Position numbers and translations under genes: made by a program | Notes under the pieces: generated by a model | What the model was told of the DNA's origin: nothing | The model's database searches: none | The model's input: only the letters and a program-made list of their open reading frames with translations | Origin: Bacteroidota bacterium | GTDB lineage: Bacteria > Bacteroidota > Ignavibacteria > UBA10030 | Assembly (NCBI GenBank): GCA_016928255.1 | Contig: JAFGLB010000162.1 | Coordinates: 1-40,520, forward strand | Direction of reading: 5' to 3' | Length of the DNA stretch: 40,520 nt | Shown here: positions 6,766 through 34,851 of the stretch, one piece after another | Layout: each line of letters opens with the position of its first letter | Numbering within the stretch: position 1 is the first letter of the stretch

Positions 6766-7869
6766 ATGAAACATAAATCCTCTTCTTATACAGAAGAGCT
6801 GAAAAGACTTTCAGCTCTTCGTAACCTTGACAAAATTAGGACAGGTGTTAACTCGTTATATTATCGTGTAGTTAAAACACACACTGATAGAGATGGCTTA
6901 GGTAATTTTCCTGTCAATGGTCAATCATTTCGAATTAATAAAGAATACTTACTTTCTGAGTTCTCTCAAATACAAGAAGCTCATTCTATTGAAAGGGCAA
7001 AGTATTATATTAAAAGACTCATAAAGAGTCTTAATGAAATTCGTCTTGGTAAATTGAATGATATTAATCTTAACCGTTGGAAAGAATACAACGATATCGT
7101 TACAGACAGCCTTTGGGAAATTGATAAACGAGACAGGTCGGGGACGCACACCGCTGGTTACTGGGGTAACTTTGTACCACAAATACCTAATCAACTTCTT
7201 CGTCGATATACAAAAAAAAATGATTGGGTCCTGGATGCCTTTCTTGGAAGCGGTACAACGTTAATCGAATGCAAAAAATTAGGTAGAAATGGAATAGGCG
7301 TTGAATTACAACCGTCGATCGCTAGGAAAGCTCAACAAGCAATAGATAAAGAAAATTCTGAAATTCCTATGCGATGCCCTGTAATTGTCGGCGATAGCAA
7401 ACAGTTGAACTTATCGCAAGAAATAAAAAAGTATGGCACATCATCTGTCCAATTTGTTCTCCTCCATCCACCTTATTGGGATATAATAAAATTTAGCAAT
7501 AACGATTCTGATCTCTCAAATTCAAAAACAATAAATGATTTTCTATCTGATTTTGGTAAAGTTGTTGATAATTGTTCAAAAATATTGGATCAGGGAAGAT
7601 ATTTGGCTGTTGTTATTGGCGATAAGTATAGTGATGGGAACTGGATTCCTCTTGGTTTCTATACAATGCAAGAAGTTTTGAATAGAAATTATTCTCTTAA
7701 ATCAATAATCGTAAAGAACTTCAAACAAACAAAAGCAAAGCGTGGCCAAGAAAGATTATGGAGATATCGCGCTCTTGTTGGTGGCTTTTATGTATTTAAG
7801 CATGAATACATATTCTTATTTAAAAAAATAGTGCCAATTAATTCACTTAGTAGTAAATTACAAAAATGA
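6766..7869 (+). CDS. DNA methyltransferase (N4/N6 amino-methylase type), motif order X-I-IV
   Basis: WVLDAFLGSGTTLIECKKLGRNGIGVEL (SAM motif I) followed by FVLLHPPYWDIIKFS (catalytic PPY motif with His in place of Asp/Asn/Ser); upstream GNFVPQIPNQLLRRYTKKNDW resembles motif X. Confidence 0.85.
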   Translation: MKHKSSSYTEELKRLSALRNLDKIRTGVNSLYYRVVKTHTDRDGLGNFPVNGQSFRINKEYLLSEFSQIQEAHSIERAKYYIKRLIKSLNEIRLGKLNDINLNRWKEYNDIVTDSLWEIDKRDRSGTHTAGYWGNFVPQIPNQLLRRYTKKNDWVLDAFLGSGTTLIECKKLGRNGIGVELQPSIARKAQQAIDKENSEIPMRCPVIVGDSKQLNLSQEIKKYGTSSVQFVLLHPPYWDIIKFSNNDSDLSNSKTINDFLSDFGKVVDNCSKILDQGRYLAVVIGDKYSDGNWIPLGFYTMQEVLNRNYSLKSIIVKNFKQTKAKRGQERLWRYRALVGGFYVFKHEYIFLFKKIVPINSLSSKLQK

Positions 7870-33069: not shown

Positions 33070-34851
33070 ATGAGTTATCAGGTTACAGCGCGTAAATGGC
33101 GCCCGCTCGTTTTTGACGATGTTGTTGGCCAAAATCATGTTACCAACACATTAAGGAACGCTATTGCATCAAAGCGTGTTGCTCATGCTTATATTTTCAG
33201 CGGAACACGCGGCTGCGGAAAAACAACAACGGCACGGATTCTTGCTCGTGCTTTAAATTGCCTTTCTCCTGTCAATCAGAATCCTGATAATACATGTGAA
33301 ATCTGTAAAGAAATAATCGAAGGCCGCAGTCTTGATGTCATCGAAATAGACGGCGCATCCAACCGCGGTGTGGAAGAAATCCGCAACCTGCGGGATTCGG
33401 TGCGTTACACGCCTGCTCACGGTTCCTACAAAATCTATATCATAGACGAAGTGCATATGCTTACAAAAGAAGCATTTAACGCACTTTTAAAAACCCTGGA
33501 GGAACCGCCGGCACATGTAATTTTCATATTTGCTACAACGGAAGTACATAAAGTGCCGATGACCATTCTTTCTCGTTGCCAGAGATTCGATTTCAGGCGC
33601 ATAGCGGTAGAAGAAATAATCAAAACACTGGCAACAATTGCAAAAGCCGAAAGTATAACCATAGACGAAGAAGCTCTAATGGTAATAGCAAAACGTGCCG
33701 ACGGCTCGCTTCGTGATGCGCAAAGTATATTTGATCAGGTCCGTTCGTTTTGCGGAACAGAGATAAAAGCAGATGAATTGCTGAAGGCGTTCAACGTAGT
33801 CGATCAGGATATATATTTCCGTGTTACTGATATACTGAAAAACCACAATGTAAAAGATGCGATTAGAATTATTGACGAAGTGATAAAAAGCGGATATGAT
33901 CTGAGAGAATTTACAAGCGGCCTGGCGGAACACCTCCGAAATTTACTGATAGTTACTTCGACAGGATCAGCCCAGATGATAGAGGTTTCAGAGCATTATA
34001 AAAAGAAATATGAGGCAGCTGTAAAACAATTCTCCGAACAGGATATACTTCGATATATAAAACAAACAAATGAACTCGAGCAGACGCTTAAATGGGCGGT
34101 TCAACCGCGTTATCGTCTTGAAGCCGGGTTGATTCAGATGGTAAAAATGGATGATTCGTTGCAGATCGGCGAACTGCTTCGGCAGATAGAGCTGTTGAAA
34201 AAAAAAATAAGCGATAAAAATTCCAGCGATCTAAAGAATCAGCAAAATCCTGCCCGTCATGAAGACCCCCATTCTTCGGGAATTAAGGTGATGGGGGAAG
34301 TAGGCGCCGGTTATTTAAGCAGTAAAGCCGCAGTCAGTTACTCCTCGCTTATTGGAGTCGACCTGATGAAAGTGGCAGGTATACCGAAAACGCTCAACCC
34401 GGAACATGTTGCGCAACGATTTGCCGCGGAAGAGACTGTTAATCAGTCGATTTCATCTGAAGAGATAGTTGCCAGATGGCCCGATTTTATTAGCGATGTG
34501 GCCAAGACGCATATTGCTGTAAGCACTTTATTAACTGAAATTAAAGTCCTGGACGTTCAGGGTGGAACTGTGCGTATCTCATGCCCGGATATGTATCATT
34601 TTTCAACAGTGAAGCGCCATAGAAATTTCTTGGTAAATGCACTTAACCAGGTTATCGGCAAGAATATCGCAATAGAACCGGTTCTGCATTCAAGCAAAGA
34701 CATTCCTGTCAAGTCGGTTTTTATGACTTCTTCACAGTTAGAAGACGCGAAAAACAGCACAGAAAATCGGATTTCAGATAATAACCAGGTGGTTGAACAT
34801 CCTGTTTTGAGCATGCTGAAACGTGAATTAGGCGCAGAACGTATTGAGTAG
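33070..34851 (+). CDS. dnaX: DNA polymerase III subunits gamma/tau
   Basis: RKWRPLVFDDVVGQNHV, FSGTRGCGKTTTARILARALNC, IIDEVHMLTKEAFNALLKTLEEPP. Confidence 0.96.
   Translation: MSYQVTARKWRPLVFDDVVGQNHVTNTLRNAIASKRVAHAYIFSGTRGCGKTTTARILARALNCLSPVNQNPDNTCEICKEIIEGRSLDVIEIDGASNRGVEEIRNLRDSVRYTPAHGSYKIYIIDEVHMLTKEAFNALLKTLEEPPAHVIFIFATTEVHKVPMTILSRCQRFDFRRIAVEEIIKTLATIAKAESITIDEEALMVIAKRADGSLRDAQSIFDQVRSFCGTEIKADELLKAFNVVDQDIYFRVTDILKNHNVKDAIRIIDEVIKSGYDLREFTSGLAEHLRNLLIVTSTGSAQMIEVSEHYKKKYEAAVKQFSEQDILRYIKQTNELEQTLKWAVQPRYRLEAGLIQMVKMDDSLQIGELLRQIELLKKKISDKNSSDLKNQQNPARHEDPHSSGIKVMGEVGAGYLSSKAAVSYSSLIGVDLMKVAGIPKTLNPEHVAQRFAAEETVNQSISSEEIVARWPDFISDVAKTHIAVSTLLTEIKVLDVQGGTVRISCPDMYHFSTVKRHRNFLVNALNQVIGKNIAIEPVLHSSKDIPVKSVFMTSSQLEDAKNSTENRISDNNQVVEHPVLSMLKRELGAERIE

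Follow-up and report, generated by a model that had tools for sequence, protein, structure and literature searches.

A length-conserved A10 run in dnaX of an Ignavibacteria genome as a probable site of programmed transcriptional slippage

It has long been argued whether the gamma form of DnaX is a general subunit of the replisome or something found peculiarly in E. coli and Thermus. The question is raised again by dnaX in the window analyzed here, by which we mean the whole stretch of 40,520 nucleotides from contig JAFGLB010000162.1 of a Bacteroidota bacterium of the class Ignavibacteria. A sequence-only reading had pointed out ten consecutive As from codon 377 of this gene, which the sequence confirms (Table 1), and had proposed that a gamma-like product is made there by transcriptional slippage similar to that of Thermus. 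Is this run a programmed site, and if so, is it the RNA polymerase or the ribosome that slips on it? Based on the comparison of related dnaX genes, we consider it very probable that the A10 run is under selection and serves as a programmed site of transcriptional slippage.

The open reading frame matches the dnaX_nterm family (TIGR02397, E 6e-140) as well as the ATPase (AAA), lid and domain III families, the last of which finishes at residue 372. The closest solved structures are the gamma/tau chains of E. coli, including clamp-loader constructs of 368-395 residues. Located 63% of the way through the gene and directly 3' of domain III, the run is read as TTG AAA AAA AAA ATA AGC GAT AAA, its first A being the start of codon 377. 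When translated in silico, the A10 sequence gives 593 aa. An A9 sequence reads AAA AAA AAA TAA and yields 379 aa (43.2 kDa), an A11 sequence reads AAA AAA AAA AAT AAG CGA TAA and yields 382 aa (43.6 kDa), and A12 gives 380 aa. The predicted short products of A9 and A11 have the C-termini ...LLKKK and ...LLKKKNKR, respectively. Any change in length other than by a multiple of three thus drops the whole tail just past domain III. This is the outcome that had been predicted from the sequence, namely an immediate stop with nine As, a stop three codons later with eleven, and a product of about 380 aa. Near stops in both alternative frames, found here after 0 and 3 codons, are a feature of the Thermus type. 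The gamma predicted in this way would be approximately 50 residues shorter than that of E. coli (379-382 versus 431 aa).

Table 1. Positions of dnaX features and of sequence elements around the A10 run
Feature	Position	Strand	Basis
dnaX, encoding tau (593 aa, frame 0) and a predicted gamma of the clamp loader	33070..34851	+	ORF; TIGR02397; AAA, lid and domain III families
Domain III (DNA_pol3_gamma3, residues 243-372), end 4 codons 5' of the A-run	33796..34185	+	PF12169, E 9e-10
A10 run, putative slippage site, codons 377-379 and base 1 of codon 380	34198..34207	+	Sequence; kept in relatives
TAA in frame with one A lost or two gained (predicted 379/380-aa product)	34208..34210	+	A10 followed by TAA in the window and 5/5 congeners
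TAA in frame with one A gained (-1 frame; predicted 382-aa product)	34215..34217	+	Sequence; in-silico products
Tau-only tail, missing from predicted gamma, with a weak match to DnaX_C around residues 460-547	34211..34848	+	PF20964, E 0.0018, below curated cut-off
CCCCCAT/ATGGGGG inverted repeat (CCCCCAT 34266-34272, ATGGGGG 34291-34297), judged outside the mechanism	34266..34297	.	Fold z 0.07

Taken alone, the A10 run is no more than chance would provide; it is its conservation that is beyond chance. The window holds 5 matches to A9 where 8.4 are expected, and a pattern search of the 3.16-Mb genome returned 17 separate runs of ten or more As, a few of them within other genes. Another sense-strand A9 within a gene lies at 7212-7220 (+) of the window, in the codons ACA AAA AAA AAT of a 367-aa open reading frame (6766-7869). 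At dnaX, A10 followed by TA is present in the window and in 5/5 congeners, and since A10 occurs in all congeners, a sequencing or assembly error can be ruled out as its source. Of the 83 dnaX genes sampled from the order, 65 carry A9 or A10 at this site, compared to 16.2 expected (maximum 25 in 300 shuffles) when synonymous codons are permuted within each gene with the peptide kept, which rules out a chance run arising from codon usage. Elsewhere in the same 83 genes (125 kb) there are only 2 runs of at least nine As. The earlier suggestion to look for the run and its stops in related dnaX genes therefore finds both of them kept. Two other in-frame A10 runs, located on other contigs of the same genome, served as controls, and both are probably neutral: the run in tilS (L203) is missing in 3/3 congeners covering the place, and that in a U32-peptidase gene (L211) is missing in 4/4 congeners examined. 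Slippage at the tilS run would change the C-terminus of TilS. A further control gene, L201, has no homologue in the congeners.

Could the run be a by-product of a conserved Lys-Lys-Lys peptide and A-rich codon usage, with no recoding at all? The sequence L-K-K-K is indeed common at this site in the family of the window. However, shuffles that keep the peptide place the run in about 16 rather than 65 of the 83 genes, and lysine codons within the run are 173 AAA to 18 AAG, versus 1476 to 1071 outside it. The peptide also varies with the register (KKK, KKN, EKKN, QKKN) while the A-run stays, which makes this explanation very improbable. A few relatives (L020, L027 and L084) write KKK with AAG.

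The quantity that is conserved at the site, as judged from these sequences, is the length of the run and neither the peptide nor the codon register. Genes of the window's family mostly carry the run in register 0 (AAA AAA AAA), other families have it in register 2 (xxA AAA AAA AAG or xxA AAA AAA AAC), and some members of the class in register 1. With a final A in the codon 5' of two AAA codons, 33/36 genes use a third codon other than AAA (18 AAG, 12 AAC); without this final A, 42/44 genes use AAA as the third codon. This compensation, which holds the length at 9, has a Fisher value of 1.2e-16 that is too small, as are the other p-values given here, because the sequences are related and not independent. 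On a tree built with FastTree from 106 DnaX N-terminal regions, run-bearing genes switch register at least 9 times while the length stays at 9-10, and the presence or absence of the run changes at least 15 times. Despite the relatedness of the sequences, repeated register switches with the length kept are separate events. Placing length above register as the mark of such a site is our own criterion and is not taken from the Thermus papers. In a large share of genomes, selection against slippage begins to show at a run length of nine As (PMC1088944).

Stops in the alternative frames come early as well. As a null, the codons 3' of the run were replaced by random draws from the codon usage of the gene in question. 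Relative to this null, the position of the first stop is on average at the 22nd percentile in the +A frame and at the 30th percentile in the -A frame (n=76 relatives), with p-values of 8e-13 and 2e-10 that are likewise too small given the relatedness. Among run-bearing genes of the order, a stop within 4 codons is found in 83% for the +A frame, compared to 35% under the null, and in 20% versus 16% for the -A frame. Of the two frames, +A/-1 clearly predominates, which is compatible with both mechanisms. Programmed -1 ribosomal frameshifting in the style of E. coli, in which the ribosome would slip on A_AAA_AAA and end at the TAA of the -1 frame to give a 382-aa gamma, could draw on this strongest of the stop signals, and on the presence of an A_AAA_AAN heptamer in every run, the run of the window itself containing A_AAA_AAA, on which some ribosomal -1 shifting may also take place. 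However, stops are early in the other frame too. A heterogeneous pool of mRNAs would be expected to go along with early stops in both frames, whereas a ribosome slipping by -1 would have use for only one of them.

The codons of the run and its surroundings also speak against the ribosome. To form A_AAA_AAG, the best E. coli site, a register-0 gene would require no more than AAA AAA AAG, yet the register-0 genes have AAA as the third codon in 42/44 cases and AAG in none, and AAG or AAC is seen only when the ninth A comes from the upstream codon. Three elements make up the E. coli dnaX signal, namely A_AAA_AAG, a Shine-Dalgarno sequence upstream of it and a stem-loop close by (PMC5009743, PMC3711429). 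The E. coli heptamer is absent from the window (AAA AAA AAA ATA) and from all register-0 relatives. Anti-Shine-Dalgarno pairing of the 22 nt 5' of the run equals that of the control in the 76 relatives (p 0.92), ruling out a Shine-Dalgarno stimulator. The CCCCCAT/ATGGGGG repeat that had been noticed downstream has both of its arms, and the accompanying judgement that it is probably too far away to stimulate frameshifting holds: it lies about 58 nt from the run, the 103 nt 3' of the run fold no better than shuffled sequences (z 0.07), and no excess of structure is found 3' of the run in the 76 relatives, so that a downstream hairpin is ruled out as a ribosomal stimulator. In sum, the window shares with E. 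coli dnaX a -1-frame stop just 3' of an A-rich site in one gene that would serve for both tau and gamma, and differs from it in having neither A_AAA_AAG, nor a Shine-Dalgarno stimulator, nor a stem-loop at the right distance. We regard ribosomal frameshifting as unlikely here; the fixed length, free register, stops in both frames and lack of ribosomal stimulators fit transcriptional slippage better. The genome has a separate tRNA-Lys(CTT) gene. A 2016 review proposed a dedicated tRNA-Lys(CTT) as one reason why Thermus uses polymerase slippage and not ribosomal frameshifting (PMC5009743).

We also considered slippage at the level of replication. The dnaX gene is essential, so that a contingency (phase-variation) tract toggling tau between cells would be lethal wherever tau was switched off. 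In addition, the length stays at 9-10 throughout the families and the tau frame is open in nearly all genes. Although replication slippage can mutate runs of such length (PMC1088944), a contingency tract is the least credible of the explanations that we weighed.

With transcriptional slippage as the preferred reading, we propose that RNA polymerase produces a mixture of dnaX mRNAs with 9, 10, 11 or more As on the A10 run. Those with 10 (or 10+3n) As would encode the 593-aa tau, and all others would meet a TAA within 0-3 codons and yield a gamma of 379-382 aa. This gamma would comprise AAA+ domains I-II and oligomerization domain III without the tail. We infer that slippage occurs at a useful rate, that gamma is made, and that it enters clamp loaders. 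The fixed length, the changing registers and the stops in both frames support the initial proposal of a Thermus-like origin for the gamma-like product. Together, the pattern of the site strongly suggests that one gene gives a long tau and a short gamma via RNA polymerase slippage, as in Thermus.

The relation to known systems is close. Thermus thermophilus dnaX undergoes transcriptional slippage on an A9 run (Larsen 2000, as cited in PMC1088944 and PMC5009743). Both genes have a single open reading frame for tau, at least nine As in the sense strand and near stops in the two alternative frames, with gamma coming from mRNAs of other run length, an outcome that is predicted in our case. The differences are that the window has A10 where its family has A9, that the lineage is unrelated, and that the Thermus run lies seven-eighths of the way through the gene (PMC1088944) rather than right after domain III. 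A 2013 study by Antonov described 17 split poly-A dnaX genes from 12 genera, nine of them with 10 As and that of Chloroherpeton with A9, suggested transcriptional realignment for them, and listed Chlorobi among the hosts (PMC3711429). These genes resemble ours in having A9 or A10 at the gamma/tau boundary, and Chlorobi are related to the group sampled here. In contrast to the window, where frame 0 encodes tau, their frame 0 encodes gamma and ends past the run, and tau, in the -1 frame, requires the shift; among our sequences, this arrangement occurs in L260 and L263, for example.

The site extends beyond the order. A wider sample of 60 genomes of the class and phylum, supplemented with named Bacteroidota loci, shows A9 or A10 close to where domain III ends. 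Across the phylum the run takes each of the three registers, the +A-frame stop usually follows within 4 codons, and GC-rich lineages and some others lack the run. Among cultured relatives, Pedobacter puniceum (L140), Rufibacter hautae (L147) and Hymenobacter sp. IS2118 (L162) carry A10. The polarity is reversed in L260, L263, L161, L169, L170, L174, L176 and L186 (the last six being named Bacteroidota and Chlorobiaceae loci): frame 0 stops just past the run and the +A frame is open, so that tau would need the slip. Reversed genes of this kind are probably annotated as frameshifted or truncated. Matches from other phyla (Lachnospiraceae, Verrucomicrobiota, delta-proteobacteria) are mostly without such a run, and a scan of viral contigs returned distant DnaX relatives only. 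We lean towards the view that production of gamma by polymerase slippage on a run of 9-10 As is of ancient origin and belongs to the Bacteroidota/Ignavibacteria group as a whole, that the run is fixed in length and free in codon register, that the tau and gamma frames are interchangeable, and that GC-rich lines have repeatedly lost the trait.

Departures from the pattern also occur close to the window. The run is wholly lost in L020, L025, L026 and L027 of the same family, where gamma may be missing or may arise by proteolysis. More generally, the run has been lost in several lineages, so gamma is dispensable there or made otherwise. L016 and L023, also of this family, have A8 only (AAA AAA AGA), yet their +A-frame stops lie 2-3 codons on, making them natural test cases for the length threshold of the A-run. 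In L021, A9 is kept but the +A-frame stop is distant (76 codons). In congener G005, dnaX lies in two pieces on separate contigs (L024/L088), which break off near the run; the second piece shows A10 followed by TAA.

Both the slippage mechanism, from Thermus dnaX, and split A10 dnaX genes, from 2013, are already known, and the dnaX gene of the window is a well-supported further candidate for the Thermus type. In the main texts of open-licence papers, we found no paper on dnaX frameshifting in Ignavibacteria and no description of the single-ORF slippage form across the Bacteroidota/Ignavibacteria group. A 2005 survey considered sites with a truncated product hard to judge by comparative sequence analysis (PMC1088944); comparison of codon registers can tell transcriptional from ribosomal slippage even in this case. 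The group also offers natural variants for direct tests, including A8, A9 and A10 runs, three registers and lost sites. A site that is kept over a large group, tuned in length and interchangeable in frame argues for selection of the short DnaX form. If our reading of the wider group is true, one of the largest groups of bacteria would use gamma as a regular subunit of its clamp loader.
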